A DNA stretch of 64,000 nt from Tetracentron sinense. Lineage: Eukaryota; Streptophyta; Magnoliopsida; Trochodendrales; Trochodendraceae. The notes beneath the pieces are model-generated. The model ran no database searches and was not told the origin of the DNA. It saw nothing but the letters and a program-made list of their open reading frames with translations. Where the stretch lies: NCBI GenBank assembly GCA_015143295.1, contig CM026571.1, positions 28,176,505-28,240,504 on the forward strand, given 5' to 3'. Below, one piece after another: positions 566-58,521 of this stretch. Position 1 is the stretch's first letter, and each line of letters begins with the position of its first letter. A program made the position numbers and the translations under genes.

Positions 566-670
566 CTCGCTCGAGCGGGCTTCCATCTCGCTCGAGCGGG
601 TTGCTCTCGGGACTCAGAAATTCGGTTTTGGTCTATCTCGCTCGAGCGGGTTTGGATCTCGCTCGAGCGA
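566..670. repeat. Four CTCGCTCGAGCG palindromes
   Basis: Near-identical copies start at about 566, 587, 637 and 658. Each contains the palindrome CGCTCGAGCG. They lie upstream of the LTR's minus-strand TATA-like box. Confidence 0.9.
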
Positions 671-1464
671 GTTTGTCTGCAAAAGTATCTTTCGATATTT
701 TGGTCATAAAGTTTGACTCAGTGGTCCGATTTTGACGATTCAACTTGCGTTGGAATCCTCTTTCGAAGGGAAACAACTTTTATGTTTTATACAACTTCTA
801 ATTTTGAGTTTTAATCTTACAAAAATGGCTCTAAAGTCGACTGATCTGCAAATTGGTTTCGACAGTCCAGATTTTCAACAGTCCCAACTTTGGAAATTGG
901 ACTTCTGACTCAACCCCGGCTCAAAATCAGGGAAAGTGATCAACATGAACCTTGAAGAGGGTTCCAATACCTTTCTAAAAATTCAAGAATCACTCGATTC
1001 TGATCATCAGTTATCACACTAGTGCTTCTTGAAGTTGAGGGAAATGCCAAAACAGGCCTCTTCAACACCTAGAACACTTTGAGTGCTTTCACACTCTTTT
1101 CCCTCGGTTCCAAAACCCTACTCACACCTCATAACTCGTTTTCCATAGGTTTTTAACCCACCTCAGTGATCGTTAAATTCACATCGACATGCATGAAATG
1201 CCCTGGCCTCTTTATGCCTTGCGCACTAGCACTATTCACTACACTATTCACTTATAACTCATTAAACACTTAGGGCATTTTATACCCCTTTCTTTTACCA
1301 ACTTAGAGTATATTTATACTCTCTTTGAGACTCAAAACATGTACCTAAACCCTCACTTGACTCACCATAATAACCAAAACACCAAGGAAGGCCTTAGGAC
1401 TTTACACACATCATGTAAGGGCACTATTCACATGAACAGTGAACTCAAATTACGAGGCTCTACA

Positions 1465-3555
1465 CTATCTCCATAATTTAAATTTAAAACAAATGGTGGG
1501 CTTTTGGCCCATGGGTTTTCCACCTTAGACCCATACATATACATATCTATATATAAATATATATATATATATTTTTTAATTTTTAATTTTTTTTTTTGTT
1601 CAGGATATTACAAACTACCCACCTTAAAATAATTTCGTTCATGAAATCAAGACATACCCATCTGTATCAAATTCATAAACCTCGTATCGTCTGGTTTCTA
1701 ATTGTCTCAGGGAAATACATTTTATATAAGATTTCTTAAATTGATCTCATTTATCTATGAATTATGTATACTAGTGTCATCAATGTAATGTTTACATGTA
1801 AAAAAAATAATAATAAGTACCACATAACACATCATTTGAGTAATTACAAATTACTCAAAAATTCATTATTGTATACCACTTTTGTGCCATTAATACCTTA
1901 ATTATGTCTTATAGATGGTCCTAAGTACATTATAAAAAATAAAGGTAATCGATTTTTTTGTTTTTTTTTTTTTGGGATCATTCATGACTACTCACACATT
2001 TGTTATTAAACTCCTAAGATTTACTAACTGATGCTCTGATACCATATTGTCACGCCCCGATTTCTAAAAACTCACAACTCAGCCCATTATCTAAGGTCCG
2101 GCCTGAGATCTAGAATTCGGGGGGTGAGGATTATTAATAATTTAATTTATAATTAGTATTTCAAGTATATTAATTTAATTTTTTTTATTGGTTTGTTTTA
2201 CATATAAATAGTTTTGAAATAAATAGTAAACAAAATTATCATGGTATAAAATTTTACAGAGACATACTTCTACAAGTCTATGAACTACGTATAAAATTTC
2301 AGAATTTTCTGATAATTGAAAAATATTCTGTAAATATTTTTCTGAAACTACACTTAAAATTTCAAAAAAACAACAATGTCGCATTACTTTTATTTAAAAT
2401 ATTAAAAAAAAAAAATTGGTCCCTATACCTATCATGTTTTCCTAAGATCTATAAATGAATTCTAGAAAATAAATTTACTTCCGAAGTTCTTACATCATTC
2501 ACTAATTTAAATTAAATAAAAAAAAAACATTAATGATATCCACTAAAACATGATCCTTTAATTTTGTAATTAATTCTAAATCATGAGAGAAGTCTTCATA
2601 TTTCTTCTTTACTTCCAAGCACCCATTACTCTATACCTGAAAATATTGACAAGAAGGTCTAATGAGCTATGAAGCCCAATAGCAAAAATCCACTCTCTTT
2701 CTTATAATTAATTTACAATTAAAAAAAGCATGCAATATAAATACATGGAAAAATATATAAATTAACATTATGATTCATTCAAATATGATGGCTCGATTTT
2801 CGCACCAACTCGGCCTTACTATCATCATCGATTTTAGTACCAGTTCGGTCAAACTGACTATCCCAAGCAAGGGATCTTCCTCGACGGCTTTAGGGCCTTT
2901 CACCGAAGGATCCACGATCGTGGCTTACTCATCATTTTAGGGGCTCTCACCTACGGTATCATATAACTGTCTTTAATGCATCAATCATGCATAAGATGCT
3001 ATTTACAACATAACAATCATTGTATCATATATTTTTCATCTTCACAAATCTCATGTTATAGATTTCTACATTATTTGTACAATAATAAACAAATAAAAAT
3101 TAATGCATGCTAATATAATTCTGAAAATTTCAAATAACATGTCATCATTTAATTAGAATTTTTTTTAACAATATCATCATTATCAAATATTTATTTGATT
3201 TTTTTTTACTACAAATTAATTTTAACAAAAAGAATGGCAAAAACCTACCTGGATTTTTTTCTCGATTAATGATTTCCTCCCAAAAACTTTCGACTCGAAC
3301 TTTTCACTCATTTTCTCGAGCTTAATCTATGCTTCTGCATAATTCTTATTTCTCATTTCTTTATCTTTTTCCTGTGATCTCTCTCTCTTTCTCTCTCTTA
3401 TATTTAATTCCTTTAAAATTTAAAGAGATTTTAAAGATTTCAAAAGAGATCTAATCTAAACTAACCTTATTTAAGCTAATCTCTATCTCCTTAATTTAAA
3501 TTTAGAACAAATGGTGGCCGTTTGGCCCATGAGTTTTCCACTTTAGACCCATACA

Positions 3556-3602
<47 letters not shown>

Positions 3603-5526
3603 TAGGATTTTACAAATTACCCACCTTAAAATAATTTCGTCATCGAAATTAAGACATACCCATCTGTATCAATAAACCTTGTATTGTCTGGTTTCTAATT
3701 GTTTCAGGGAAATACATTTCATATAAGATTTCTTGAATTGATCTCATTTATCTATGAAGTATGTATACTAGTGTCATCAATGTAATGTTTATATGTAAAA
3801 AAAAAAAAAAATAGGTACCACATAACACATCATTTGAGTAATTACAAATTATTCAAAAATTCATTATTGAATACCACTTTTGTGCCACTAATACCTTAAT
3901 TATTTCTTATATTTGGTCCTAAGTACATTATAAAAAATATAGGTAATCAATTTTTTCTTTTGAGATCATTCATGACTACTCACACATTTGTTTTTAAACC
4001 CCTAGGATTTACTAACTGATGCTCTGATACCATTTTGTCACGCCCTGATTTCTAAAAGCTCACAACTCAGCCCATTATGTATGGTCAGGCCTGAGATCTA
4101 GAATTCGGGGGTGAAGATTATTAATAATTTAATTTATAATTAGTATTTGAATTATATTAATTTAGTTTTTTTTATTAGTTCGTTTTCCATATAAATAATT
4201 ATGAAATAAATAGTAAACGAAATTATTATGGCCTAAAATTTTACAGAGACATACTTCTATAAGTCTATGAACTACGTATAAAATTTCAGAATTTTCTAAT
4301 ACTGGGAAAATATTCTGTAAATATTTTTCTGAAACTAAACTTAAAATTTCCAAAAAAACAACAATGTCGCATTACTTTTATTTAAAATATTTAAAACTAA
4401 AATTTGGTCTCTATACCTATCATGTCTTCCTAAGATATATAAATGAATTCCAGAAAATAAATTTACTTCCAAAGTTCTTACATCATTCACTAATTTCAAT
4501 TAAATTAAAAAAACATTAAAAGTATCCACTAAAACATGATCCATTAATTTTGTAATTAATTCTAAATCATGAGAGAAGTCTTCATATTTTTTCTTCACTT
4601 CCAAGCATCCATTACTCTATACCAGAAAATATTGACATAAATGTCTAATGAGCTATGAAGCCCAATAGGAAAAATCTATTCTCTTTCTTATAATTAATTT
4701 ATAATAAAAAAAAACTTGCAATGTAAATACATTGAAAAATATATAAATTAACATTATGATTCATGCAAGTATGTTGGCTCGATTTTCGCACCAGCTCGGC
4801 CTTAGTATCATCACCAATTTTACTACCAGTTCAGTCAAACGGATTATCCAAAGCAAGGGTTCTTCCCCGAGGGCTTTAGAACCTTTCACTCAAGGATCCA
4901 CGATCCTGGATTGCTTATCATTTTAGGGGCTTTCACCCACGGCATCATAAAACTATCCTTAATGCATCAATCATGCATAACCTGCTATTTACAACATAAC
5001 AATCATTGTATCACATATTTTTCATCTACTTACAAATCTCATGTTATAGATTTCTACATTATTTCTGCAATAATAAACAAATAAAAATTAATGCATGCTA
5101 ATATAATTCTGAAAATCTAAAATAGCATGTTATCATCTAATTAGAATTTTTTGTAACAATCATCATTATCAAACATTTATTTGATTTTTTTACTACAAAT
5201 TAATTATAACAAAAAGAATAGCAAAAACCTATCAGGAGTTTTTTCTCAATTATTGATTTCCTCCCAAAAACTTTCGACTCAAACATTTCACTCATTTTCT
5301 CGGGCTTGATTTATGCTTCTCCATAATTCTAATTTCTTATTTCTTTCTCTTTTTCCTGTGATCTCTCTCTCTCTTTCTCCATCTTGTATTTACTTCTTTT
5401 AAAATTTAAAGAGATTTTAAAAGAGTTTTAATCTAAACTAACCTTATCTAAACTAATCTCTATCTACTTAATTTAAATTTAAAACAAATGGTGTGCTTTT
5501 GGCCCATGTGTTTTTCACCGTAGACC

Positions 5527-5573
<47 letters not shown>

Positions 5574-7518
5574 AATTTTGGAAATTACAAACTACCCACC
5601 TTAAAATAATTTCGTTCATGAAATTAAGACATACCCATCTGTACCAAATCCATAAACCTCGTATCGTCTCGTTTCTAATTGTATCAGGGAAGTAAATTTC
5701 ATATAAGATTTCTTAAATTGATCTTATTTATCTATGAATTATGTGTACTAGTGTCATCAATGTAATAATTATATGTAAAAAATAAAATAATAAGTATCAC
5801 ATAACACATCATTTGAGTAATTACAAATTATTCAAAAATTCATTATTGGATACCACTTCTGAGCCATTAATGCCTTAATTATGTCTTATAAATGGTCCTA
5901 AGTACATTATAGAAAAAATCGGTAATCAAATTTTTTTTTTTGGATCATTCATGACTACTCACACATTTTTTTTAAACCCCTACGATTTATTAACTGATGC
6001 TCTGATACCATTTTGTCGCACCCCGATTTCTAAAAACTCACAACTCAGCCCATTATCTATGGTCCGGCCTGAGATCTAGAATTTGGGGATGAAGATTATT
6101 AATAATTTAATTTATAATTAGTATTTTAATTATATTAATTTTGTTATTTTTTTGGTTCATTTTTTATATAAATAATTACGATATAAATAGTAAACGAAAT
6201 TATTTTGGCCTGAAATTTTACAGAGACATACTTCCATAAGTCTATGAACTACGTATAAATTTTCAGAGTTTTTTGATAATGGAAAAATATTATGTATTTT
6301 TCTGAAATTAAACTTAAAATTTCTAGAAAACAACAATGTCGCATTACTTTTATTTAAAATATTTAAAACTAAAATTTGGTCTTTATACCGATCATTTCTT
6401 CCTAAGATATAGAAATTAATTCCAGAAAATAAATTTACTTCCAAAGTTCTTACATCATTCACTAATTTCAAGTAAATTAAAAAAAAACATTAAAAATATC
6501 CACTAAAACATGATCTATTAATTTTGTAATTAATTCTAAATCATGAGAGAAATCTTCATATTAATTATTTACTTCTGAGGATCCATGACTCTATACCTGA
6601 AAATATTGACATGAAGGTCTAATGAGCTATGAAGCCCAATAGAAAAATTCCACTCTCTTTCTTATAAATAATTTACAATAAGAAAAAACATGCAATATAA
6701 ATACATTGAAAAATATATAAATTAACATTATAATTCCTGCAAGTATGATGGCTCGATTTTCGCACCAGCTCGGCCTTACTATCATCACCAATTTTAGTAC
6801 CAGTTCGGTCAAACTGAATATCCCAAGCAAGGGATCTTCCTCGACTACTTTAGAGCCTTTCACCTAAGGATCCACGATCGTGGCTTAATCACCATTTTAA
6901 GGGCTCTCACCTACGGCGTCATATAACCGTCCTTAATGCATCAATCATGCATAAGATGCTATTTATAACATAACAAGCATTGTATCACATATTTTTCATA
7001 TATTCACAAATCTCATCTCTTAGAATTCTACATTATTTGTGCAATAATAAGCAAATAAAAATGTAAGCATGCTAATATAATTATGAAAATCTCAAATAAC
7101 ATGTCATCATCTAATTAAAATTTTTGTAATAATACCAACATTATCAAAAATTTATTTGATTTTTTTTTTACTAGAAATTAATTTTAACAAAAAGAATGGC
7201 AAAAACCTACCTGGATTTGTTTCTCGATTATTGATTTCCTCTCAAAAACTTTCGATTCGAACTTTTCATTCGTTTTCTCGGGCATATTTATGTTTTTCCA
7301 TAATTCTTATTTCTCATTTCTTTCTCATTTTCATTTGATCTCTCTCTCTCTTTCTCTCTCTTGTATTTAGTTCTTTTAAAATTTAAAATGATTTTAAATA
7401 TTTTAAAAGAGATCTAATCTAAACTAACCTTATCTAAACTAATCTCTATCTCCTTAATTTAAATTTAAAACAAATGGTGGGCTTTTCGCCCATGGGGTTT
7501 CCACCTTAGACCCATACA

Positions 7519-7549
<31 letters not shown>

Positions 7550-10500
7550 TTTTCAGGACATTACAAACTATCACCTTAAAATAATTTCGTCCTCGAAATT
7601 AAGACATACCCATTTGTATCAAATCCATAAACCTCGTATCGTCTAGTTTCTAACTGTCTCAGGGAAATACATTTCATATAAGATCGTTTAAATTGATCTC
7701 ATTTATCTAGGAATTATGAATACTAGTGTCATCAATGTAATGTTTATATGTAAAATAAAATAAAATAATAAGTACCACATAACACATCGTTTGAGTAATC
7801 ACAAATTATTCAAAAATTCATTACTGGATACCACTTTTGTGCCAACAATGCCTTAATTATGTCTTATAGATGGTCCTAAGTACGTTCTAAAAAATATAGG
7901 TAATCAAATTTTTTTTTGTTTTTTTGGGATCATTCATGACTACTCACACATTTGTTTTTAAACCCCTAGGATTTACTAACTGATGCTCTAATACCATTTT
8001 GTCATGCCCCAATTTCTAAAAAGTCACAACTCAGCCCATTATCTATGGTCCGGCCTGAGATCTAGAATTGGGCTTGAAGATTATTAATAATTTAATTTAT
8101 CAGTAGTATTTCAAGTATATTAATTTAGTTTTTCTTTGTTTGTTTTTCGTATAAATAATCATGCAATAAATAGTAAACGAAATTATTTTGGCCTGAAATT
8201 TTATAGAGATATACTTCTATAAGTCTATGAACTACGTATAAAATTTCAGAATTTTCTGATAATGAAAAAATATTCTGTATATATTTTTCCGAAACTAAGC
8301 TTAAAAGTTCATGAAAACAACGTCGCATTACTTTTATTTAAAATATTTAAAACTAAATTTGGTCTCTATACCTATCATGTCTTCCTAAGATATATAAATG
8401 AATTCCAGGAAATAAATTTACTTCCAAAGTTCTTACATCATTCACTAATTTTAATTAAATAAAAAAAACATTAAAAATATCCACTAAAACATGATCCATT
8501 AAATTTGTAATTAATTCTAAATCATGAGAGAAGTCTTCATATTTTTTCTTCACTTCCGAGCATCCATTACTCTATACCTAAAAATATTGACATGAAGGTC
8601 TAATGAGGTATGAAACCCAATAGAAAAAATCTACTCTCTTTTTTATAATTAATTTACAATAAAAAAAAAGCATGTAATATAAATACATTGAAAAATATAT
8701 AAATTAACATTATGATTCATGCAAGTATGATGGCTCAATTTTCGCACCAACTCGGCCATCCCCAATTTTAGTAACAGTTCGGTCAAATTGACTATCCCAA
8801 GCAAGTGATCTTCCTCGAGGGCTTTAGGGTCGTTCACCCAAAGGATCCACAATCCTAGCTTATTCATCATTTTAGGGGCTCTCACTTACGACATCATATA
8901 ACTGTCCTTAATGCATCAATCATGCATAACATGCTATTTACAACATAACAATCATTGTATCACATATTTTTCATCAATTCCCAAATCTCATGTTATAAAT
9001 TTCGACATTATTTGTGCAATAATAAACAAATAAAAATTTATGCATGCCAATATAATTCTGAAATTCTCAAATAACATGTCATCATTTAATTAGAATTTTT
9101 TGTTATAATATCATCATTATCAAACATTTTTTTGATTTTTTTTACTACAAATTAATTTTAACAAAAATAATGGCAAAAACCTACCTGGATTTTTTTCTCG
9201 ATTATTGATTTCCTCCCAAAAACTTTAGATTCGAACTTTTCATTCGTTTCCTCGGACTTGATCTATGCTTATTCATAATTCTTATTTCTCATTTCTTTCT
9301 CTTTTTCCTACGATCTCTCTCTTTTTCTCTCTCTTTTATTTAGTTCTTTTAAAATTTAAAGAGATTTTAAAGATTTTAAAAGAGAACTAATCTAAACTAA
9401 CCTTATCTAAACTAATATCTATCTCCTTAATTTAAAATTTTAAAAACAAATGGTTGGCTTTCGGCCCTAGGGTTTTCCACCTTAGACCCATATATATATA
9501 TATATTGTTCAGGATATTACAAACTACCCACCTTAAAATAATTTCGTTAATGAAATTAAAACATACCCATCTGTATCAAATGCATAAACCTCGTATCGTC
9601 TGGTTTCTAATTGTCACAGGGAAATACATTTCGTATAAGATTTCTTAAATTGATCTCATTTATCTATGAATTATGTATACTAGTGTCATCAATGTAATGT
9701 TTATATGTAAAAAAATAATAATAAGTACCACATACCACATCATTTGAGTAATTACAAATTATTCAAAAATTCATTATTGGGTACGACTTTTGAGCCATTA
9801 ATGCCTTAATTATGTCTTATATATGGTCCTAAGTACATTATAAAAAAATAGGTAATAAATTTTTTTTTTTTTTTTTGGGATCATTCATGACTACTCACAC
9901 ATTATTTTTAAACACCTAGGATTTACTAATTGATGCTTTGATACCATTTTGTCACGCCCCGATTTCTAATAACTCACAACTCAGCCCATTATCTATGGTC
10001 CAGCCTGAGATCTAGAATTTGGGGGTGAAGGTTATTAATAATTTAATTTATAATTAGTATTTCAAGTTTATTAATTCAGTTTTTTTTTGTTCGTTTTTCA
10101 TATAAATAATTATGAAATAAATAGTAAATGAAGTTATTTTGCCCTGAAATTTTATAGAGACATACGTCTATAAGTCTATGAACTACGTATGAAAAAATAT
10201 TATGTATTTTTCTGAAACTAAACTTAAAATTTCTAGAAAACAACAATGTCGCATTACTTTTATTTAAAATTTTTAAAACTAAAATTTGGTCTCTATACCT
10301 ATCATGTCTTCCTAAGATATATAACTTAATTCCATAAAATAAATTTACTTCCAAAGTTCTTACATCATTCACTAATTTCAATTAAAGTAAAAGAAAAACT
10401 TTAAAAATATCCACTAAAACATGATCCATTAATTTTGTAATTAGTTCTAAATCATGAGAAAAGTCTTCATATTTCTTCTTCAGTTCCGAGCATCCATTAC

Positions 10501-11411: not shown

Positions 11412-11461
<50 letters not shown>

Positions 11462-17054: not shown

Positions 17055-17110
17055 CAATTAAAGTCCACTGCAGCAATTGGTGTCTTCACCTTAGGCGGCC
17101 TACCCAGTAT
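17055..17110 (-). pseudogene. Multi-AT-hook protein relic, C-terminal part
   Basis: The minus strand encodes LGRPPKVKTPIAAVDFN followed by TGA (17055-17057). GRPPK is an AT-hook core. The copia element separates this piece from its upstream part at 24671. The codons continue in phase on the other side of the insertion and GTAT is repeated at both edges (17107-17110 and 24671-24674), so the two pieces were one exon. AT-hook proteins bind the minor groove of AT-rich DNA in chromatin. Which gene family this is (HMGA-like or another plant AT-hook protein) cannot be decided. Confidence 0.7.
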
Positions 17111-18151
17111 TGTTGGGATATTGGTAATAATTGTTGTATGTTATAATTTATATATATGCAAATTACAGAATTCTAAAAAACAATTACAGAACATACAATC
17201 AATGATAATAGAACAGAGAATTAAAAGGCAGTGCACATTACTGACTGAGGCTTGAATTTGATTCAATGTCCTTAAGACAATATTGCCCCGCACAGGTGGT
17301 CACAGCCTACAGCAACTTGTCTCCCAAGATACAACAGTCTCGTTCTGGGTACTACCACTAGAAACCCGAGGACACAGCGAACCAGTGATGTTTAGTACTC
17401 TCTCTTGACTGATATGCAGATGACAGAATGCAAAAGAAGATGGAAAACTAGGGAGTAGAAGATCTGATTTTTGTACTCTAGAAAATGCAGTAGAAAAGCC
17501 TTAAATAATATGCTAAGGAGACTGTCCAGAATGGTCATGTCTCTTGGGTTTCAATTTAAATCCAACAGACATGACTGTTGGATTAAAAAGCTATTGGGTA
17601 TAACTGTATAAGTTGAATGGGCTTTGGCCCAATAAAAAATAAATATAGGGGCCAGGCTTTAAGGCCCACAAAGTAACCAAACCAAACCAACCCAAGCCAG
17701 CCGGCCGGCCGGATCGGATCGGACTCGGACACGAGCACGGGCCGGGTCGGCGGCGGCATGCGTGTGTGTGGGTGGTTCCACTATGGAGCATGGGCTCACT
17801 CTTTCGCAAAATTTGGGTGCCCAAAGGGCCCACCCTTTACTCCAAGGTAATGGTATATAAACCAAACAATGGTTTCACTAATTTTCCGATGTGGGACTAT
17901 TATTCTATACCATTCTTCAACTTACAACACATGCTTAAGTGGCCCACTTTGAGATTAATTTCTCATTCACCACTTCACTATTTTGGACAAGTAAATATAC
18001 CACGTTAATCTCCTCATGGAGGAGAACACGGATCCACTTTGACCCGCTTCAAAACCCTTGTGGGTCCCACTTATTTTTTGGGTCAAAGGTTGTAAAAAAC
18101 AGGTTTTCCAAACCACCCAGAATTTTTCCAAAACAGATTTATTTCCCAACA
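17111..18151 (-). repeat. 3' LTR of the copia element
   Basis: Starts TGTTGGGATATTGG and ends TTTCCCAACA. It pairs with 23653-24670 along its length. Confidence 0.95.
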
Positions 18152-22739: not shown

Positions 22740-23652
22740 TAATATAAAATAAGATTCTAGACTTTTAACTAATCACAGAAATGAAGATTACTAATGTAGT
22801 AATCTAACTTCACAATGCAGATTTTATCAATGTAGAATTCTAAATTTCAGATTACAGAAATGCAGAAATTCAAAATCAGAATTCCAATTCCAAAAGTTGA
22901 AAACAGAATTAGAAATTGAAGTAATCTAAATGTAGAATTTACTGGTGCAGATTTTGAACATGCAGATTGCAGAATTTAAAATGTAGATTTTATGAATTAC
23001 AGATTTCAAATCTAAGAAAATGAAATATCAGATTTTAATTTTAGATTTAAAAAATTGCAGATTCAAATTTATAGAATTGTAAAGTGTAGTAAATTAATTG
23101 CAGAATTAAAATTGGAGAATTATAAAAAAAAATTTTAAGAGGCATAATCTAACATTGCAGAATTCTGTTAAGTGTAGAATTTAAATGCAGAATGTAGAAT
23201 TTGCAAATTGCATAATTTTAACAATGTAGTGCAGAATTTGAATTCTAAAGTGCAGATTTTAAATTGCAGTATTTCAGAATCCAGAATTAAAAGTGCAGAT
23301 TTCGGAATTTGAAATAGCAATATGCAGAATTCTAATTCGAAATTGCAATTTTAAAATGTGTAGAATTCTGTACAGATTCTAAAACTCCAGAATTAATAAG
23401 TGCAGAATCTAAAACTGAATTGCAGAATTTAAAGTATAGAATCTGAAATTCCAAAATATGAATTTCAGTATTCTAAATGCAGAATTTAATTTTACAGAAT
23501 TCAAATTTCAGATTCAGAATTACAGTATTTCAAATTGTAGAATTTGAAACTGTAATTACAGAAATTGGAATACAAAATTTCAGCAGACAGTACAGAATAT
23601 TGTAATTTGCAACAGTAAGAATAATATACAACAACAATACTGTCTTAAGAAT
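22740..23652. repeat. Degenerate TGCAGAATT-rich leader of the copia element
   Basis: About 0.9 kb between the 5' LTR and gag consists of dozens of irregular variants of TGCAGAATTTAAA-like words. The period is not fixed. There is no coding frame. Confidence 0.8.
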
Positions 23653-24670
23653 TGTTGGAGATATTGGTAATAATTACTGTATGTTATAATTTATATATAT
23701 GCAAATTACAGAATTCTAAAAAAAAATTACCGAACATACAATCAATGATAATAGAACATAAAATTAAAAAGCAGTGCACTTTACTGACTGAGGCTTGAAT
23801 TTGATTCAATGTCCTTAAGACAATATTACCCCGCACAGGTGGTCACGGGCTACAGCAACTTGTCTCCCAAGATACAACAGTCTCGTCCTGGGTACTAACA
23901 CTAGAAACTCGAGGACACAGCGAACCAGTTATGTTTAGTACTCTCTCTTGACTAATATGTAGATGATAGAATGCAGAAGAAGATGGAAAACTAGGGAGTA
24001 GAAGATCTAATTTTCGTACTCTAGAAAATGCAGCAGAAAAACCTTAAATAATATGCTAAGGAGGCTGTCCAGAATGGTCATGTCTCTTAGGTTTCAGTTT
24101 AAATTCAACAGACATGACTGTTGGATTAAAAAGCTGTTGGGTAAAACTGTATAAGTTGAATGGGCTTTGGCCCAGCAAAAAATAAATATAGGGGCCAGGC
24201 TTTAAGGCCCACAAAGTAACAAAACCAAACCAAATTAAGCCAGCCGGACCCGGACACGGGTCTGGTCGGTGGTGGCGCGCGCGTGTGTGGTTGGTTTCAC
24301 CATAGAGCATAGGCTCACTCCTTCTCAAAATTTGGGTGCCCAAAGGGCCCACCCTTTACTCCAAGGTAATGGTATATAAACCATAAAATGGTTTCAATAA
24401 TTTTCCAATGTGAGACTATTATTCTATATCATTCTTCAACTTACAACACATGTTCAAGTGACCCACTTTGAGATTAATTTCTTATTCACCACTTCACTGT
24501 TTTGGACAAGTAAATATACCACGTTAATCTCCTCATGGAGGAGAACACGGATCCACTTTGACCTGCCTCAAAACCCTTGTGGGTCTCACTTATATTTTGG
24601 GTCAAAGTTTGTAAAAAACTGGTTTTCCAAACCGCCCAGAATTTTTCCAAAACAGATATATTTCCCAACA
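23653..24670 (-). repeat. 5' LTR of the copia element
   Basis: Starts TGTTGGAGATATTGG and ends TTTCCCAACA. It adjoins GTAT of the interrupted AT-hook exon. Confidence 0.95.
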
Positions 24671-40000: not shown

Positions 40001-43000
40001 CTTACAAATTCATACATCAGTTCACATATATAATCGGAGTGCAGAAACAATAGGTACATTTTCTTTTCTTACTTTATTACTTTTCTTACTTTTTATACTT
40101 CGTACTTTATCGTTTTATGAACACACATTCACATACATTGGTAATAAATTAAAATACCGCTTTACTGTATAAGGAAAGGGGTTACTATTTCCCAGTACGA
40201 TGGCTTACTTACTTTGGCATACTTCTCGCCATTTTGATGGTATTCAGTGGTCCAAAACATAACATACATTATCGCTTTCGTGTGTCTTTCTTTCTTACTT
40301 ACTTTATTTTTGGTCTTACTTATAATCTCCTTAGTTTCTTTAATTGTCTCTTTAAACATGTGCCTATTTTTCATTTGTGAGTGTACAATGATACGCCTTT
40401 TGTTTAAATTACTCCTAAGACTAACCGTCAAGGGCCATAGGACATCTCACCATAGTGTCCCATTTCACTATGCTAACCATGCCTAGGCAAGCTTGACTTT
40501 CATCAAAGGTTCATTTATCCAAATGTATATCATGTATAAAGAAACATAAAAGAAACACACAACCTTTCATATTTCCAATGATTCGACAATTTAAAATCAG
40601 TGTATATTAAAATGCACATAAATAACGACCCAATTAAATGTCAAATCCCTTTTCTTTAATCAACATCAATATCTTAATTATAACACCTTTCATCAATAAT
40701 AGTTCTCATTAATTATAAACATAAAATCAAACTCACATATAATTAAAATCCCACAAATAATTCATCCATTCAATTCCATCTATAAATCCACACACTTCAA
40801 TAAAGTTTCCCAATTCCTTTGTTGAATCATAACTACTTTAACTTGGTTCTTCACATCCTAAAATTAACGATTTAAGAACAGAGATCATAAATATGGTTAT
40901 TCACATCCTATTTTAATGATTCAAGAGTTATTAAGTGGAATCATAAATATGGTTATTCACTTCCTATTTTACGATTCAATAATAATGAAACAGAATCATA
41001 AATATGGTTATTCACATCCTATTTTATCGATTCAAGAATAATAGAACGAAATCATAAATATTTTTCATAGATCCTACCTATTCTTCTGTTCTTACTTAAG
41101 TTTACTCCTTTTAATTCATTCTTTTAGGTTAATATTCAAAATATGGATCACTAGATTTGTTATTTTACCTCACTTGATTACTTCCCTACGATCTATCGCT
41201 TGCAAATAAGGCTCTATATCGATTCCGAGCCTCTTTTCTCATTTTTCTGCTCCAATCTTTGAAATCCTTCAGTTTCTCCTTTTTGATCTCTCAGAAAGCT
41301 CTCCCTTTTCTCTGTTTTAGGTTTAGAAGCCTATAGAAACCCTAACTCTCAAGTTGGAGGGTTATTTATAGTGTTTGGAGACCCTAGGGAGTTAAAAGGG
41401 TCGAAAAATCGTGCTAACACGGAAAAATCCCACATTGGGCGATCGATCGGCCACGCCGATCTCCATTTTTTTTTATAAGTCTTTTGCTACATTTTACTCT
41501 TCTTTTATTTCATGCAATTTATTTCTATAAACTCGCTAAATTGAATAAAATAAATGGGTTTTCTTTCGAGGTTTTAACACATTAATTTCTCATAGGAGTT
41601 TTGCATAATTCTAGCATGTTTATTAAGAAAATTAAATCATATAATCATAAAAACGAGGAATTTAATTTGGGTCATTACAACATCCCTACTTCAAAACAAG
41701 TCTAAGTCAATATATACAAGTCACTCCCTTATAGTCTCTCAACAACAGTCTAGATAGGGCCACTTATCAATGCCCTTACTCTCCACTGCCTGGTCTCCCT
41801 TGGGAATCTCCTCAGTGTACTCCTCCTCTATCCATGGAGCTGGAGCACAAATGTCAAAAGGACTTGCTGACAATAACAGTTCGGCTGAGCATGGAATGTT
41901 AGCCTTTAGGTTTTCAACTTAAGGTAACATCATTAATTTTGATGATAACACAATAATGTAATGTCATTTGTGTTACTAATGCTTCTATTGAGTTTGAATG
42001 TAATTCAGTTTATGAAGAGCATTAGCAAGTCTTCAATAAAAAAACATGAAAATGACACCATTTATGAGAAGATTCAACATCAAATCAAACAAGTCAATAT
42101 GGATCAAAATGAAGACATCAAAGATCAATCAAAGTCCAAGATATGAAGATGAAGTCTAAGAAGCCATCTTGATCAAAGAAGCTTAAAGATGAAATCAAGA
42201 CCCAAGATCAAGTTGAAGATGAAGACTCTCCTAAAAGTTTTAAATTTTGTCTTAGGACTTATGTAAAAATCCTCAAAGTGTGGTTGATTGAATGCTCAAA
42301 GCCTAGACTGATCATAGGAGCCTTAGACCAAAATTGTTGTAAGGCCGTAGGATATCAGAATGACAAAAAACATGATAAAAATGAGCCAAGAGTCCTTGCA
42401 AATCATTCCCATCATTTAGACAAGGTAAAGATGAGATTTCTGTGAAATAACAGAGAACTCGTCGATAAATTTACAGAGGCATTGAGAACTCGTCAACGAA
42501 TTCAGCCGCAGAGGCTACTGTCTCTGTTCTGGCATTCATCTCGTTGACGAATTCAAAGAGCTAACCCAATCTCATCGACGAATTCTTGCGGGAAGCTAAA
42601 AACTCTATAACGGCTAGTTTCGTTTTCAATGCTTTTCCAACGGTTATAAAACCTCTTGGGCTATAAATAGGGATGGTTTATGAACTAAAAGAACTCCAAT
42701 CATTCTAATACTCACTCTATCATTCATTAATAAATCCTTTGAGTAGAAAGCCTAGAAACCCAAAAGAGTTCGAATTTGAGCTATTCAACTCTATTCTTTG
42801 AGACACTCTTAGAGAAGCTTGAAAGTGATCATCCACTTTGTTATAAAGTGAGAGTGAAATCAAGAATCGGTGAATTCTTGTCCTTAAAGCGGGGAGCTTT
42901 TTATAGGCTTGATCTTCGCCCGTAAGAAGATTGTAAAGGTATGATCTTCACCCGTAAAGGGATTGTAAATGTTTGATCTTCACCCAGAAAAAGATCGGTT

Positions 43001-46000
43001 ATCGAGTGAAAATCGTGGTGAATCCTTTAGTGGGTATAGCTTGAGGCGGGGATGTAGGCGGGCTTGCCAAACCTCGTGAACAATATATTGTGTTTGCATT
43101 CTATTTCCCTACTCTTTACTTTATTGCTTTTTATTGATTGCGTAGAATTACATATTTCCATTCCCTTTTAATTATTAAAATTGAAATTCTGCTTAAGGGA
43201 ATATGAATAATTTTTAAATTGCCATAGACCCTATTCACCCTCCCTTTAGGGTCCAAACCTTGGGCAACATGGAAGGCTCATTGTGTACTAACTACTAAAC
43301 AATGATGTTAGACAAAAACAGGATTCACATGCAGTTCATATATTTCAATTGTCAAAACACATGCATACTACCAATCAGACATGCGGAAATCATAACTTCG
43401 ATAAACATGTGCATACTTTTCAAAACCATATACTTTACTTTTCTTTATTTGAAAACAAACCACATATTCTTACGATTTGTTTCATGTCTTTTACTTCATA
43501 CTTATCATGTTTCATTACTTTTTCTTTACTTAGCCGAGTTGATCCTTTTTACTTGAGATCAGGCGATTAGTGGTGTACCTGGTCTAAACACACTAATGCC
43601 CTCCCAATCCTTGTTCATTCTTTTACTTGGGATCAGTGACTATTGACTAGTGGTGTACCTGGTCTAAACACATTAGCATCCTCTCAATAGCTTTTCAATC
43701 CTTGTTTTACTTGAGATCAGGTGACTAGTGGTGTACCTGGTCTAAACACACTAGTAGCACCCTCCGAATAAAATATTCTTGTTTTACTTGAGATCAAATG
43801 ACTAGTGGTGTACCTGATCTAAACAAACTAGCATCCTCCCAATAGTATATTCTTCTTTTGTTTTACTTGAGATCAGGTGAATAGTGGTATACCTGGTCTA
43901 AACACACTATCACCTTTCCAATAGTATCTTCTTTTCTTTCTTTCATCTTCTTTACTTTACTTTTCGGATACCCATACTTATACAAAACTTCGATCATGCA
44001 ATTCAAGTGCTCATATATACCATTTGTGTGTGACATATAGGCAATAAAACTTCAATAACATGACACATGCATTTCAATTTCCATTTCATAGTCTTAAACT
44101 TGCTCTCATATAATTTAGACACATATAATTTAATCCATTTAACATGCTTTTGAACATCATCATCTTCTTCAATAATTTACCATATGAATATTCAAAGTAG
44201 GTTAATTAGAACATTTGCATCACATTTATTAATTCCATCATTTCTTTCAATAAGGGATACATCTAGGTCATTTAGTAGAGATTATCTACCTCAAATCATC
44301 ATCAAAATGCTTTCATTTCCATTTCTTATGAAGAAATGATAATAGGGTTGAACAATAGAGTATTTGCATCACATTTATTAATTCCATCATTTCTTTCAAT
44401 AAGGGATACATCTAGGTCATCTAGTAGAGATTATCTATCTCAAATCATCATCAACATGTTTTCATTTTCATTTCTTATGAAGAATTCATAACAGGGTTGA
44501 ACAATAGAATATAATCTACAACATATCATAGCATGCTTTTTTCATCTTAATTTGAACTAAAGAATAGCAACAACACTATTTAGTAGAGAGTATCGACCTT
44601 ACAAGACTGAATCCCTTCAGTCCAAAGCTTGAAAAGGAGTTGAGAAGGCTGAATTCCAAGCTCCTCCTTGCTCCTCTAAGAGTTTTCCTTAGAAAACCTA
44701 GGGTTTTCTCCCCTACTTTGCCAAATTGGGTGAAAAGAGCTTAGAATATCCTAAACCCTCGAATTAGGTGTCCTATTTATAGTCCAAGGGTTTAAAACTC
44801 TAATCCGCACTTAGCACATTAAAAAAAAACTGCTTTTGTGAACTTCGTTTGAACGAAGTTTGGGTTCGTTCGAACTAACCTGTTCGTTCAAACGAATGCA
44901 GCCCATTTCAAACGGAAATGGCTGTTGAATCCGTTTAAACTACAATTTTTCTGGCTTTGTTCGAACCATGGTTTTAAAAAACGCCGAAACCGTTATGTAA
45001 CGCCCATTACGTAACGGTTTCGTTGAACACCGTTACCCATTACTGTTACGCTACACCCATTTTCCCTTATGGGTACCGTAACGTATTCGACATATTTTTT
45101 CACTAAAAAATATCTGTCACCCCCCCCGAGCAATCTGTTGAAGGTAAAACGATATTTTTTAGTGAAAAAAACTCTTTAGAATCTTGTTACTTCTTCTTTA
45201 CATATTTATTTTATTTTTTTTTCTATTTATTTTAATTTTTTTAAGCAAAAAAAAACTTGTAAAGGCCGAAACCGTTAACGGTTTCGGCCGTGTCTGTTAC
45301 GGTGCCAGAAATCGTTTTTTTGAACCTTGGTTCGAACGAAAGTCCAGAATCTTGTTTGTTTGTTTTTTTTTTTTGTTTTTCTCCCAACCTAGCTTCTTCT
45401 ACTTAGGCTCATACCCAATTTAAACATTCTAAGACACATTTTAAGATTTAAACATTCGTCCAACAGTTTTATTAACTTTGAGCATGACACATACTTCAAT
45501 ATTGACCATTTTACCCCTTTTTCGACACTTAGGACATTTCTTTCTTCCCTCAAGACACTTGGGATACTCTTCCCTAGTACTCAACACTCCAATGCACACA
45601 CAGATACCCCTAATAAGGTTCCTATTAGTATTTTTACTCTACACACTACACTTGGAAGGCTTTTGGCCTTTTCCAAGCCCATGTATAAGATACTATTCAT
45701 TAAGTTTTTGGGGTTCTACATTGGTAATCCCATGTGCTATTCTGACTCTAATGGCCCATCTAGGTTGTTAATTTTAATTCCAATGATCCCTCCGGCGATT
45801 TCAACTACGACATCTTTTACTACTGATGTTGTCTTTTTATGCTCAAAAGCATCTCAACCCATTTATAAAAAGGGTTGGATTTGTATCTGTGAGGTTATAA
45901 TACCTAATTATTTTAGAAACTTTCTAAACAACCAAACAGCACAAAGATAATTTGTCTCCAGTTTTCTCTTCTCAACCAAGCAACATGAAAAACTGATTTC

Positions 46001-46808: not shown

Positions 46809-46853
<45 letters not shown>

Positions 46854-52270: not shown

Positions 52271-52280
52271 TTATTTATAG
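52271..52280 (-). promoter_or_regulatory. TATA box of the LTR remnant
   Basis: The minus strand reads CTATAAATAA, 70-240 bp from the palindromes. Confidence 0.65.
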
Positions 52281-52348
52281 GGTTAATTAGAAATCACTAA
52301 ATCTTGGAATCCTATTGAAATTAGGAATTTCTGGGCAATTTAGCAACC

Positions 52349-52510
52349 GGGTGGTCGACCGGTGCATATGGGCGGTCGACGGGTGATCTGGTGGTCAACC
52401 GGCTTGGGCGGGCGGTCGACCGGCCGAATGCTCACTCTCTGCCAAAAAACCCCATACATTCTTTTTTTGTGTTTTCACTTGAGGGTCGATCGGGCTTGAG
52501 GGGGGTCGAC
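52349..52510. repeat. GGTCGACC-type palindrome cluster
   Basis: GGTGGTCGACCGGTG (52350), GGGCGGTCGACGGGTG (52370), GGTGGTCAACCGGC (52390), GGGCGGTCGACCGGCC (52410), GGGTCGATCGGGC (52483) and GGGGTCGAC (52502). Confidence 0.9.
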
Positions 52511-52670: not shown

Positions 52671-52810
52671 CACAAGCAATAAGACTAGTTATGATTTATG
52701 GAGTGTAATGTCGGGCTACTAAGAAGAAACATATAAATATAATAATTATAGTCGAGATGAGGATGGGTGAAAAGATAAGATCAGAATTGAGCGCATTTAA
52801 GATAACTAGT
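52671..52810 (+). mobile_element. RTE LINE fragment, later segment
   Basis: Encodes TRLVMIYGV then ATKKKHIN and VEMRMG..KIRSEL, the segment that follows the RT region in RTE elements. It is probably the continuation of 49520-50900 after the insertion between them. Confidence 0.65.
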
Positions 52811-54560
52811 TGTCACAACCCAAAATCCTCCTAGCTGAAATGGGACTTTGAATCGCGGCACTGCTTACCTTAACTTATCTTAAGAGCTTAAAAGACACAC
52901 TACTTTAAATGATCATTCATCTTTAGATTAAAGGTAAAATGAACCTTGATAATCCAAAACTATTCACTATAATTCTAAGTCAACATATTTAGTTTCATCA
53001 TCCATTCAAAATAATTTAATTATAATTCATTGATTTAAACGTCTAAGTCTCAAAAGTAAAGAATTGTCCAATTAACCATCTTCTATTTGGATGTCACCTT
53101 CTAAATCCTCAACGTAGTCTTCCTCTATCCAAGGTTTAGTAGCAGCCTCGGACTCTAAACCTGTAGTCATGAATATTTTGGCTGAGCACATACGGCTCAA
53201 TAGACATAACATTCTAGCTAACAATAATCATAAACATCATAACATATATTCTCAATACATTTCATTTAATCTATTTTACATAATGAAATCAGAGTACGAA
53301 ACTACATATGAGCATACATATCGTGCATAGCTTGTGCGGGCCTCATAGTACAAGTCATATTGTGCCTATTCTAGGAGAACACATGCATTGTGTGTGCATA
53401 ACTTAAAATAACTTAAAACTCTTATATCGGTCATGAGGTTACATATATTGTGGATTTCAACTAGTTGACCCTTGTCGGCGTCCCGCTACTAGCACCATCG
53501 TTTTCCTATTGCACTTCTACTTATGAAGCAGGTTACAACCATCGTTTTTCCTAATTTTGCGTCTACTTGTGAACCAGGTCAATACCCTCGGTTTCCTAAT
53601 TGCATCTACTTGTGAACCAGGCACTAGCATGTTATTGGTATCCATAGCTGGTTGAAACTCAACAAGCATCATACATATACTTATCTACACAATTGTGAGG
53701 TCTTGTGATACTTGCAAGGTCTTGTGAGACTTGCGAGCTCTTGAGACTCATGAGTTTGTACGAATATCACTTGTGAACATTTTGTGTTCAAAACCTTTTC
53801 ACGCATATGGTCATTTTATCTCATAAGATGATGACACATAATTCATATAAGATAATGACACATCTTTCAGAAACAATAGAGGCAACAAATCATAACACTA
53901 TAAGGATACACCTACTCATTTCTTATCTTACACGGTCATAGCATACACTTTTCATACAATAGGTCATAATTATCTTACTAAGGCATACATTATGACGTTC
54001 ACACTAATATATACTTAGCACTCATGCCATCATAAATCATAAGATTTCGTCTATATATATATGCAACATTCATCAGTTATACTCATAAGTAATGTTTACG
54101 ATGCCATTAGCTATTATATCGACATAATATCTAATGCAACACTCATAAATTGATGCTCATGTTATTGATAGTTAGAAATATTATATCTACCTTAAATTGG
54201 CGCTCCTTCGTGCTTTCCTCGAATGTTGAATTTCCGGTCTAGGTCCCCACTCTACAACGCTTCTTCTTTTCCAAACCTTTAAACACAAATAATTATTATA
54301 GATTTCATGTCATTACCTATTTATTGACTCTCCTTTACTCTATTAGGGTCTTTTACGCTTTAACCCTAGGAGATCTCCAGTAAATCTGAGCTATTCTCGG
54401 ATGCTTGAACTCAATGGGTCCTCGACTCACAAGTTAGGCCCCAGGTTTTGCATTAACTCATTTGCAAAAACCCAAGTCATAATCATAATAGGAAAAAACC
54501 CTCTTTCAAAACCTTACTTAAATCATGTTACCAGGATGAAAACCTTTTCTAAAAATCTTA
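52811..54560 (-). mobile_element. LTR fragment (left-hand part)
   Basis: Starts TGTCACAACCCAAAATCC, like the LTRs at 39291 and 39511, inserted in the RTE fragment after CTAGT. A 60-bp minisatellite lies at 53470-53635. The promoter-bearing right part is not reached; the sequence runs into a LINE near 54560. Confidence 0.65.
53470..53635. repeat. Minisatellite, three copies of about 60 bp
   Basis: CATCGTTTTTCCTA followed by TCTACTTGTGAACCAGGT-like text recurs near 53500, 53535 and 53585. Confidence 0.75.
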
Positions 54561-55800
54561 CTATAACACTTTTTAAAAAAAAATAAAATAATAATAATCA
54601 CCCAGAGGAAGGGGCGGACATAAAACCGAAACCCCTTTAAAAAACAACTTACATTCTGACATTAAACAATGGAGATCTATCTATGCACATCATACCTTTA
54701 ATTGCCTTCAGGCAATGACTAATATTTCTGAAATTCTTATTGTCCTGATTCCTTCAGACTGATAATTTTCTTCCACCAATACCAAGATTTCCATGGAGGA
54801 TCAATTTTCCCATTAATAACATCTATAATAATCTTTGAGTCACTTTCCACTAAGATATTTGATATCCTCAATTTATCACACCACAAAACACCATCCCAGA
54901 TGGCCCTAAACTCAGCAATTGTGTTAGATTCCAAAACATAGGACTCATAAAAAAGCTAAGATCATCTTGCCATTTGAATCACGAATGATCCCTCCTCCTC
55001 CACTAACTCCCAATTCACTATTAGCTGCACTATCTGTATTTAATTTGAACCATCCCGGAGATGGACTAATCCATTTGGTAATAATAGGCCTTTTGGTCTT
55101 AGGACTAGTCACGAAGATGTCAAAATAAAAACATAAATCAGCCTCAATGGTGCTGAAATTCCTTGAAAACTTCCAAGCATTTGCCACTCCTTTTACCCCT
55201 TCATTAATTCTTGTAACAATATCCTTAAAGTGTCTTTTGAAGTTATCATACCTAGACGCATTCCGAAAGAGCCAAATCTCCCAACATATGAACACCGGAA
55301 CCACATTACAAAGAAATCCCACCACTAAACCATTTTTCCTTCCTTGGAAAAATCTCATCAGCCTAGTTTGAATAGTGTCCTCTTCACAAATCTGAACATT
55401 CAAAACATTTCCCACTCTTTTCCAAATATTCGATGCCAACTCACTTTGGCAAAAAAGATGGGATAAGGATTCCCTATTAGAAGTCTTACAACATTCGCAC
55501 TTACTTGATAGAGAGATCCCTTTTGATTGGATGCTCAAATCAACCGCAATGACATTATGAAAATTTTTCCTAAGAAGAACTGAAATTTTAGTAGGAATAG
55601 CCTCGTGCCAGATAAAAGTTGCTCACCTTACTTTCGATTTCACTTCCTAAACACATTCCCAATAGGATTTAGTAGAAAATTTCCTTGAACTTTCTTTAGT
55701 CCAAATGATTTTATCTTCAACCTCCTTCATAAATCGGGTTTGCTATTTTATTCCAAGCGACCCAATGAGCTCTATTACATCCCAAAATTTCGTTCCAAAA
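54560..55800 (-). mobile_element. L1-type LINE with RNase H domain, 3' part
   Basis: On the minus strand, zf-RVT (CECCKTSNRESLSHLFC, with IWKRVGN, near 55500) is followed by an RNase H domain: GWFKLNTDSAANSELGVSGG near 55050, then TIAEFRAIWDGVLWC and VESDSKIIIDVINGK (54780-54930). HWVAWNKIANP at about 55740-55770 is the upstream L1 segment. RNase H C-terminal to the RT is usual in many plant L1 elements. The frame is broken (at least between 54934 and 54945) and the element is 5'-truncated. The 3' AT-rich tail lies near 54560-54600. Confidence 0.8.
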
Positions 55801-58395
55801 AAGCGAAGCAAAGATACTTGTAAACACATAAATTTACCGCCTTTCCTTCCCTCTCATCTCTAAGTGTCGAGATAAGGTCCGAGAGTAGAGGAATAACGCT
55901 AAATTTATTTTAAGAGTCGCCACCTACTCAGGGGAAGTAGGATCCCAAGATAAATCCAAAATAAGGGGTCTGCGGTCCAGAGTAGTCTAGGTAAGAGATC
56001 CATTTAGGTCCTGGGGAAGGGGTTAGGCACCCCAGGACCTCCATCCAATGATGGTAACCTACTCACTAGGTCTAAGCCAAACATTTAAATCACTTGAAAT
56101 TTCCTAAAACAATTATTAATTTTGCTAATCAAACATAAACAATCATAAAGGGGTATAAGATCTTTATCCTAGGTTGGGGTCGAACCCTGGCTCGGGCTGC
56201 CTACTTATCCGGTTAGTCGGAATCAGACCCTCATAGTAGTTCGGGGGTTGTGACTGTTTTTATACTCGTTTCGGAGTGTGGTCACTTCCAACTCGTGTTT
56301 GAGTTGGGGGAGGGGAAGTGGAATTGAGATTTATGAATCTCATTCCGGGAGATGGTTGCGTAGCTAGGTGCTCGTGGTGGAGCTCTAGGGGGCGTTCACT
56401 TATTAGGGTAAATTTCTTTTAGATTTGTTTTTGGATGTTTTTGTTATTTTATATTTTTTGATTTTTTTGTATTTTTTTTTTATTTTGGCAAGTTTAACTA
56501 GTCAAGAACTAACCTAGATGCCCAAGGTAGGCAAAAAAGAAAACAAGCTACAGCCTACTCCTATAAGGCACATACATACATGGATCCAAAATCTGCACAA
56601 ATGAATTAAATTACAAATAGTGAAGATAAAGGCCAAAATGGGAATCGGGCTTGCTAGGCTTAAACCAATTGGGCCCATAAAAAATAAGGCATGGTTCAGC
56701 CCAGTGACCTTCATTTTCTCCATATTTACAATGGTCTAGAGAGAAGACTAAACTATACAAAGGATCGTATAAATAAAGCTAATGTGCTAAGGCCTATTGA
56801 TCATTCTAAATTGGTCGATTGACTTTAGCACATCAACCAACTCTGAAATCCTCTTAGTCTCAAATTTAAACTCATACAATCATTCAGGGAGAGACATAAC
56901 ATCTAAACAAACCAGCGAAATAAGTTGGAGACAGGGAACATACCTACGTGGCTTGGAAATCAATGATGATGAAGGACTGAGGTAATGGCAACAGCAAAGG
57001 TATCTGGCCCGAATTGTGAAAACGACCGAAGGTGGGTCTGCTACTACCAAGAACAGGAAGAAGAAGAGCTTGCCGGTGCTGAGGATCGCTGCTGAAATGA
57101 GGGGTTCCGGCGAGCTAGATCTCCTGGAGAGAGCTATTGGACTTGGATGGAGTAATGGTGGAGGCTTTGAGATCTAGATCAGATCTGGATAGAAAGCTTA
57201 CTGGCCGGAGGTAATGAGGAAGATCGGAGGTCTACTCTGCTCCTGTTGATCTGAGATTAAAGAGGAGGGACGAGTTGCAAATAAGCAATGGAGATCAAAG
57301 CTGCCATCAATCTAACGCCGGTGATGAAGCATGGTGGAGCTGCTGGTCTGATCGGAGGCACGATCTGATGCGGTGGCCAATACTGCCTGAGAAGAGAGAA
57401 AAGATCGGGAGGTGCTGGCCGGGGTTGCAACTGCCGCTGGAGAAGGGTGGATGGTGATTGACGCAGGTGATCTGCTGGCCGGAGCTGCGGTGATCTGGAT
57501 TGAAGAGCTGGATCTCAATGACTTGCCAGACTGAGATCAAGAGAGAGATGGATCGGGAGATAGAGCAACAGGATCCCTGTTGCTGCCGTATACTGAAGAA
57601 GAAATAAGAGAAAGGGAGGAAGAGAAGGGGGTTGTCTCAAACGAATGAGATTTTTTCTTCACATCTCCTTTGATGTCGAAAATAGGGAGAGAGATTAACT
57701 CTCTGTCGCCGGCGAGAGAACAAGAGGAGAGAAAGGGCAGCTGGAATTAGATCTTCCACAGATCTGAGATGCTACTGCTATGAGGGTAATGGCCTCGCCG
57801 GAAGTGGTAGCTGGTAGGGATGGATCGGATCTTAGCTTCTGAGGAGGGAGGAGATCGGTGCCTTGCTAGTCGAACCTCAGTGGCGAAGACGCTAGATCTG
57901 AGATGGAGGATTGGTGGTATGCGCTGCTGCAGAGGTGGACGACGACGCGCTGGTCGGAGCGTGGTGGTGTTGGATCTCAACGGAGCTGGAATAGACGAAC
58001 GGTGAAGATGGAGGTAATCAGGAGCAACAGTGAGCTCGCCGGCGACATTGCTGGACGGAGAAGATGATCGGAAACAGTGAGCTCGCCGGCGATATTGCTG
58101 GACTGATCGGGACCGTTTCCTCCTCTACTACATATCTAAACCAAAAGGAAGAAATAATAAAAAAAAATCAAAAGAAAATCATACAAACAAAACAAAACAA
58201 AAGGAAAATGAGAAGCTTGAGGGAGAGAGATACCGAGAGAAAAGGGGAGTGCTGTTGCCGAAATGGTGTAGCTCGCACAATGGTTTAAAAGCTTCTGGAC
58301 TGAAATTGCCGCTGCCGGGAGGAGAAAGAAGGAGATAGAAGGGGCGGCTATTCTGTTTTCAACAAAAGTGAATAGTGTTTTTAACCCATCTCTTG

Positions 58396-58404
58396 ATTTA
58401 TATA
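58396..58404 (-). promoter_or_regulatory. TATA box of the Tat/Ogre-like LTR
   Basis: The minus strand reads TATATAAAT. Confidence 0.6.
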
Positions 58405-58505
58405 GGTAATAGTGATGGGCCTTGGGCCTTAGGGTTTATACCCCTTGAGGATTTGGGCTTAGGTGGACTTGGGCTTGGGGTTTTGACTTGGATCTTGTTT
58501 TGGAA

Positions 58506-58521
58506 ACGTGACGGGTCACGT
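58506..58521. repeat. Palindrome ACGTGAC-GG-GTCACGT
   Basis: Perfect 7-bp arms with a 2-base centre, about 100 bp upstream of the minus-strand TATA box. Confidence 0.85.

Follow-up and report, generated by a model that had tools for sequence, protein, structure and literature searches.

The analysed stretch (hereafter the window) comprised 64 kb of the Tetracentron sinense genome (GenBank assembly GCA_015143295.1, contig CM026571.1, positions 28,176,505–28,240,504), and all coordinates and counts below refer to it; it contained 35.5% GC, with a CpG observed/expected ratio of 0.53. The original prediction had placed clusters of CG-centred palindromes just upstream of the TATA box in six retrotransposon long terminal repeats (LTRs), labelled here E1–E6. 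Four of the six carried an array. E1 had four CGCTCGAGCG sites on the minus strand (566..671; centres 572, 593, 643 and 664), and E3 had four TCGTCGACGA-type sites on the plus strand (42458..42582; centres 42463, 42494, 42545 and 42576). E4 contained four CGTTCGAACG-type sites (44844..44969, minus; centres 44850, 44871, 44889 and 44962), and E5 contained five CGGTCGACCG-type sites (52351..52493, minus; centres 52356, 52377, 52396, 52417 and 52487). TCGTCGACGA is an inferred consensus, and E3 held no perfect 8-bp CG palindrome. The scored copies exclude an E5 site near 52508 (GGTCGACT), the E4-type sites at 45333 (551 bp upstream, within an insert) and 44553 (four mismatches, downstream of the TATA box), and overlapping near-hits in E1 and E4.

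The remaining two LTRs each held a single dyad and no array. In E2, a compound dyad (41440..41461, minus) was formed by CGATCGATCG overlapping GATCGGC-GTG-GCCGATC, as read on the minus strand. The E6 motif had been described as the CG-centred CGTGAC-GTCACG; however, a GG spacer interrupts the dyad, ACGTGAC-GG-GTCACGT (58506..58521, minus), which as a whole is not CG-centred, and only its half, TCACGTGA, is. We take the CACGTG within this dyad to be a G-box.

Because the E3 and E5 copies were mostly imperfect, arrays were sought with a consensus scan instead of perfect palindromes. Each of 1276 overlapping 250-bp scan windows was scored for its strongest array of CG-centred 10-bp palindromes, whatever their motif, and overlaps were merged. 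Five scan windows scored at least 7, and four of these coincided with the predicted regions of E1 (rank 1, score 12), E5 (rank 2, score 9), E3 (rank 4, score 7) and E4 (rank 5, score 7); an AT-rich segment at 23301–23550 ranked third with 8. E2, E6 and both LTRs of a copia element scored 0. The best score in 20 shuffles in 500-bp blocks was 6, and among 500 whole-window shuffles in 250-bp blocks a score of at least 7 arose in 17, of at least 8 in two, and of 9 once. In local shuffles (1000 each), the scores of E1, E3 (7) and E5 (9) were never matched, and the E4 score of 7 was equalled in three. All four arrays are accordingly genuine; on the scale of the whole window, two are modest.

Perfect palindromes alone were discarded as an array test, since AT and TA centres exceeded CG and the E3 and E5 copies were mostly imperfect. 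CG-centred 8-bp palindromes numbered 36 in the window, against 21.5 expected (0/100 shuffles as many), and GC-centred ones 50 against 40.2 (4/100), whereas AT- and TA-centred palindromes were in larger excess (238 vs. 136.8 and 231 vs. 117.1, respectively), which we think is due to simple repeats. Perfect CG sites grouped at least three within 200 bp were eight in total, five in E1 (including 838) and three in the E4 area (including 45010, which lies within the insert). The E3 motif recurred 16 times outside E3 with up to three mismatches, and the E4 motif 23 times outside E4 with up to four. The two-site pattern of E1 had no match in the viral collection, and its two matches in one Micromonospora contig (L001) were taken as chance in GC-rich DNA. 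Literature searches with the array motif strings returned, among the matches listed, cloning or knock-down work to judge by the titles.

Every one of the 17 copies scored in the four arrays lay upstream of a TATA element in the matching orientation, at a distance of 52–207 bp, namely 52–144 bp in E1, 85–198 bp in E3 (TATA at 42661), 68–180 bp in E4 (TATA at 44782) and 76–207 bp in E5 (TATA at 52280). The predicted position upstream of the TATA box was thus recovered for the arrays, with the reservation that the E1 element, CCTATATGTACC (509..520, minus), which aligned with the E2 box CTATAAATA, is degenerate; none of the E1 copies fell in a TATA zone under three box definitions. The strict box CTATAAATA occurred six times in the window (E2, E3, E4, E5, 15828 and 20215). 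The zone 40–250 bp upstream of these boxes covered 2% of the window and held every scored copy of E3, E4 and E5.

The copies were also regularly spaced. Centre-to-centre distances were 21/50/21 bp in E1, 31/51/31 bp in E3, 21/18/73 bp in E4 and 21/19/21/70 bp in E5, and these thirteen within-array spacings clustered at a 10.5-bp period (R = 0.76). Such an R value was reached in 2.5 × 10⁻⁴ and 4.5 × 10⁻⁴ of random placements (20,000 trials, array ends fixed), and in 0.0016–0.0066 when one array at a time was left out. The near-helical spacing is compatible with dimers aligned along a single helical face, and to this extent it fits the putative dimer-binding enhancer array of the original prediction.

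Differences among the copies were concentrated at CpG. In E3–E5, 15 of 78 CpG positions differed from the palindromic consensus vs. 2 of 68 other positions (p = 0.003), and 11 of the 15 were transitions. When the E4 copy at 44962 was omitted, the counts were 13/72 and 1/60; with E1 then added, they were 13/96 and 4/92 (p = 0.04), the E1 copies having three differences, all at a single flanking letter outside CpG. Decay of methylated CpG would leave such a pattern, which suggests that the arrays may have been methylated.

Palindromes were further counted along eight LTRs, E1–E6 and the two copia LTRs, six of which had been chosen for the feature; the limits of E2, E4, E5 and E6 were assumed, E1 was truncated by the window edge, and E3 was set 3–8 bp off (41889–43266). 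Of 19 CG-centred 8-bp palindromes, 13 lay at −250 to −50, a bin making up 15.4% of the length (binomial p = 3 × 10⁻⁷, which is too generous because array members are treated as independent and reader-chosen LTRs are included). The controls were GC 3/7 (p = 0.08) and AT and TA 2/14 each (p = 1 each). For 6-bp palindromes, the counts were CG 19/34 (p = 6 × 10⁻⁸), GC 7/32, AT 12/64 and TA 6/61. E3 added no perfect palindrome to the count, and E6 had one inside the zone and three outside it. The proposed enrichment at −250 to −50 over the rest of the LTR was therefore found, on a small and partly pre-selected set. It is explained in part by CpG richness: the same bin was the CpG-richest in six of the eight LTRs (E1–E5 and one copia LTR), the exceptions being E6 and the second copia LTR, in which CpG peaked in a bin outside the LTR; these bins extend beyond the LTRs, and E1 was short of two of them. 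Nevertheless, the palindromic share of CpGs was also higher in the zone, 13/96 vs. 6/150 elsewhere in the LTRs (p = 0.012).

The two copia LTRs, the sole LTR pair found in the window, served as a comparison. They are 91% identical and belong to an intact element on the minus strand, in which the pieces searched gave gag, integrase and reverse transcriptase domains of copia type. The LTR at 17106..18151 (minus) was CpG-rich upstream of its TATA box (17648), and the one at 23648..24670 (minus) was 24 bp shorter in this CpG-rich zone; neither had an array. Of 25 gap columns between them, 24 lay in the 100 bp preceding the TATA box (17640–17760/24190–24290), so that the zone is plastic even without an array. 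The pair differed in 13 of 48 CpG-context columns vs. 59 of 974 others, again as methyl-CpG decay would predict; a column counted as CpG if either sequence had CG, a definition that favours a CpG excess. We also observed that the segment at 23301–23550, inside this element, contained six AATTCGAATT-type sites and overlapped a 29-bp tandem repeat, with no promoter; none of its sites lay upstream of a strict TATA box.

The six LTRs were delimited with differing certainty, and no partner LTR for any of them was found in the window. E1 (1..1464, minus) runs off the window, and its 5′ end, TGTAGAGCCTCG at 1464, starts with TG. The homology of a 1.98-kb tandem array ends exactly at 1465, next to TGTAGAGCCTCG, which marks an insertion edge and hence the 5′ end; from these features E1 reads as an LTR at that end. 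The tandem repeat itself, with ~5.4 copies of 1.93–2.0 kb that are 87–89% identical (1465–12117), is cut at 1464 by the E1 LTR. E3 (41897..43269, plus) has TG...CA ends and a 5-bp duplication, TGGAA, on both sides, features that identify it as a solo LTR; we take it to be copia-like from its ends. E2 (40700..41679, minus; TATA at 41371) starts with TGTAATGACCC at 41679, and its lower limit is arbitrary, with one unsupported CA+GATGT match at 39511. E4 (43270..45720, minus) starts with TGTAGAACCCC at 45720, and its 3′ end is not fixed. E2 and E4 are likely LTRs, judging by these starts and by downstream blocks resembling those of E5 and E1, respectively, whereas the assignment of E5 comes only from its downstream block and core promoter, its limits not being fixed. 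E6 (57584..58691, minus; TATA at 58404) is likely an LTR on account of a purine run, AAAGAGGGGCAAC, followed by TGTGAACACCCC at 58691; its lower limit rests on the single CA+GCAAC match found.

Several neighbouring features were observed. By eye, an insert in E4 (~44970–45345) has imperfect inverted flanks, CGTTTTTT..AACC..TGGTTCGAAC, and internal GTAACGGTTTCGGC-like repeats; it borders the palindrome zone and resembles a small inverted-repeat transposon. Directly upstream of E5, at 52800–53300, there is an apparent end of another LTR (TTTTGGGTTGTGACA), and a block at 53281–53224 resembles E4 44145–44088 (72%, E = 0.002), which suggests nested or tandem LTRs. Three adjoining satellites with units of 20 bp, 37/77 bp and 75 bp lie just upstream of the E6 purine tract (59114–60836). 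By eye, their units contain interrupted palindromes (GCTC-ACGGA-GAGC, TGACA...TGTCA and TGACAT...ATGTCA), and they are possibly a 3′ non-coding part of the E6 element. Matches to zf-RVT and RVT_3 at 54740–55622, and a zf-RVT match below the cut-off at 37609–37842, are presumably remnants of plant long interspersed nuclear elements.

The arrays had been predicted to occur in different families and to have been gained repeatedly. This part of the prediction was weakened by kinship among the LTRs. Core promoters (−10 to +130, z against 200 shuffles) of E1–E2 (z = 5.8) and E4–E5 (z = 5.6) were more alike than in all 200 shuffles; E2–E5 (3.3), E1–E5 (2.7) and E2–E4 (2.6) were weaker, and E1–E4 showed no similarity (0.0). 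With the TATA box removed, the values were 4.9 for E1–E2, 2.6 for E4–E5 and 1.9 for E1–E5, and the similarity of E2–E5 (0.5) and E2–E4 (0.3) was gone; that of E3–E4 (3.3) was present only with the box included. Moreover, a 53-bp downstream block is common to E1 152–100 and E4 44633–44581 (77%, E = 3 × 10⁻⁶), and a 37-bp block to E2 41201–41166 and E5 52131–52095 (84%, E = 1.3 × 10⁻⁴), the latter not decisive because an AT-rich E4–E6 match reached E = 5.6 × 10⁻⁵. The upstream regions were at most weakly alike (E1–E4 z = 2.4, E1 with the copia LTR 23648–24670 z = 2.3, E1–E5 z = 2.0). The most probable reading is one distantly related LTR group (E1, E2, E4 and E5) with palindrome turnover, plus E3 as a separate, copia-like LTR. 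In consequence, these four LTRs do not count as independent cases.

A layout of this kind is already known. As reported by Bousios et al. (2010), in the part of the paper covered here, Sireviruses carry palindromic repeated motifs (RM boxes) that are element-specific, form CpG islands, are located a short way upstream of the TATA box within the LTR's upper half, and are termed Sirevirus-specific and absent from classic copia elements (PMC2829016). The palindromic repeats upstream of the TATA box in E1 (with its degenerate box), E3, E4 and E5 resemble these RMs, and a Vitis Sirevirus RM, CGGTCGACCG, is identical to the E5 unit (PMC2829016). There are also differences. The Sirevirus RMs in that account number at least eight copies per element, whereas the arrays here have four or five with one LTR per element counted, and 12 of 13 published RMs have a CGG-CCG core, which here occurs in E5 only and is lacking in the E1, E3 and E4 units (CGCTCGAGCG, TCGTCGACGA and CGTTCGAACG).

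As to class membership, the window held no complete element with E1–E6 LTRs in which the Sirevirus junctions, the polypurine tract AGGGGGAG and the primer-binding site TATCAGAGC, could be sought. E3 ends with ATTCACCCTCCCTTTAGGG + 18 bp, Sireviruses have a C-rich integrase signal ~21 bp from the LTR 3′ end, and E3 may be a Sirevirus. An ungapped comparison by eye with the Del/Tekay U3 end, TGTAACACCC, gave 8/10 for E4, 7/10 for E2 and 6/10 for E1, the published mean identity being 72.2%. The claim that both Ty1/copia and Ty3 LTRs have the feature gained no support from coding sequence: beside E2, E4, E5 and E6, 21 of the 82 minus-strand pieces without stops (at least 48 aa) were searched, and none contained a Ty3 coding domain. 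Ty3 elements of the Del/Tekay type encode a gag-pol with a chromodomain. A non-Sirevirus setting for the arrays is, tentatively, likely.

A 2016 study by Bousios et al. reportedly dealt with maize Sirevirus palindrome clusters and small RNAs. According to the portions of two papers used here, such clusters in the LTR regulatory region are linked to excess small RNAs in maize (PMC10760457, PMC5311732), and the 2023 maize paper describes transposable element regulatory regions as often being arrays of repeats, sometimes palindromic (PMC10760457). The arrays in T. sinense are alike in form and place; the small-RNA data belong to maize. Cruz et al. (2014), as far as the paper was covered, described CpG islands that vary and occupy the 5′ portion of Del (Ty3) LTRs, with none in eudicot Del LTRs (PMC4029996); its main text does not mention palindromes, inverted repeats or dyads, and the zone here differs in being short and organised as palindromes. 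CpG-palindrome arrays upstream of the TATA box in Ty3 LTRs were unreported in the titles and abstract openings among the matches listed, and term searches of the main texts of PMC2829016 and PMC4029996 found no statement on helical spacing. The extension beyond Sireviruses may therefore be new, depending on LTR classification, and so may the helical spacing. Palindromes acting as insertion targets, as far as described in PMC6911290, do not account for sites that lie within LTRs and keep a single distance to the TATA box.

Tandem self-complementary sites on the same face of the DNA close upstream of a TATA box are the familiar anatomy of an activator array for a dimeric factor. We consider it somewhat probable that the palindromes are such arrays for a dimeric host factor in the U3 of plant LTR promoters, with the motif turning over at a fixed place. 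The unit would be a self-complementary site within short tandem direct repeats, and each copy, being self-complementary, could bind the factor as a symmetric dimer. With copies separated by nearly integral numbers of helical turns, the dimers bound to them would all sit on the same side of the DNA, in a slot 50–210 bp upstream of the TATA box. Between related LTRs the slot would be kept and its letters replaced as units are duplicated or lost and methylated CpGs decay, with silencing as the putative driver of the turnover and activation as the putative outcome of binding. Both the observation and the interpretation in the original prediction are partly borne out. We must also note several points that weigh against this reading. 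The arrays total just four, two of them modest window-wide given the 17 of 500 shuffles that reach their score. The AT-rich, non-promoter segment at 23301–23550 outscores these two with 8, a score that 0/1000 local shuffles equalled. A GC-centred control scan returned two scan windows within the copia element, scoring 9 (23101–23350) and 7 (21651–21900), and a score of 8 arose in one of the 20 shuffles of that scan. Three of the six strict CTATAAATA boxes (15828, 20215 and 41371) have no array; six of the seven LTR families had been picked for their palindromes, and the unpicked copia pair lacks an array. Finally, the mirrored spacings (21/50/21 and 31/51/31) may stem from duplication of pairs, in which case the 13 distances are not independent and their true weight is lower.

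The palindromes could instead act as RNA, their hairpin transcripts feeding small-RNA silencing or serving the element RNA, with DNA binding secondary. The small-RNA link of the maize clusters favours this, as does RNA folding against dinucleotide shuffles, which was unusually good for E1 (z = −5.5), E3 (−6.6) and E4 (−5.3), with 0/200 shuffles as good. However, folding was not unusual for E5 (z = −1.3, 18/200 shuffles as good), E2 (−0.75) or E6 (−1.5), and good folding is expected of any palindrome array; DNA folding was likewise unusual for E1 (z = −5.9), E3 (−4.3) and E4 (−4.9) and not for E5 (−1.2). An RNA role also gives no reason for the 10.5-bp phasing or the place just upstream of the TATA box, and we regard it as unlikely. 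To a similar degree we doubt that the arrays are a neutral by-product of CpG-rich tandem repeats expanding and contracting in a tolerant U3, the short unit being self-complementary by chance. The copies of E1, E3 and E5 do look like direct repeats, since they share flanking letters and one orientation, and the plasticity of the copia zone and the CpG richness of the bin in an LTR without an array point the same way. Nevertheless, self-complementarity around a CG centre is common to all four units, different as they are, CpGs of the zone belong to palindromes more often than those elsewhere in the LTRs, and the spacing bias counts against such an origin. It is highly improbable that the pattern is a selection effect, produced by a reader looking for palindromes near TATA boxes in an AT-rich 64-kb window: two of the six cases were single dyads and the upstream zone takes in 28% of the window when TATA is defined broadly, yet four of the five best hits of the motif-free scan were predicted cases, and the strict-box zone, at 2% of the window, held all scored copies of three arrays.

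It is also conceivable, though rather doubtful, that the activator arrays proposed here reflect a general rule across plant LTR superfamilies, with phased CpG palindromes repeatedly replaced in a fixed slot 50–210 bp upstream of the TATA box and a core promoter that can still be recognised, as if the elements switched dimeric host factor under methylation and small-RNA pressure. Any annotated plant genome would allow the specific prediction of helical spacing to be checked. If the pattern of a constant slot with a changing motif holds genome-wide outside Sireviruses, it would provide a testable handle on how LTR promoters recruit host factors and how these promoters change under silencing.

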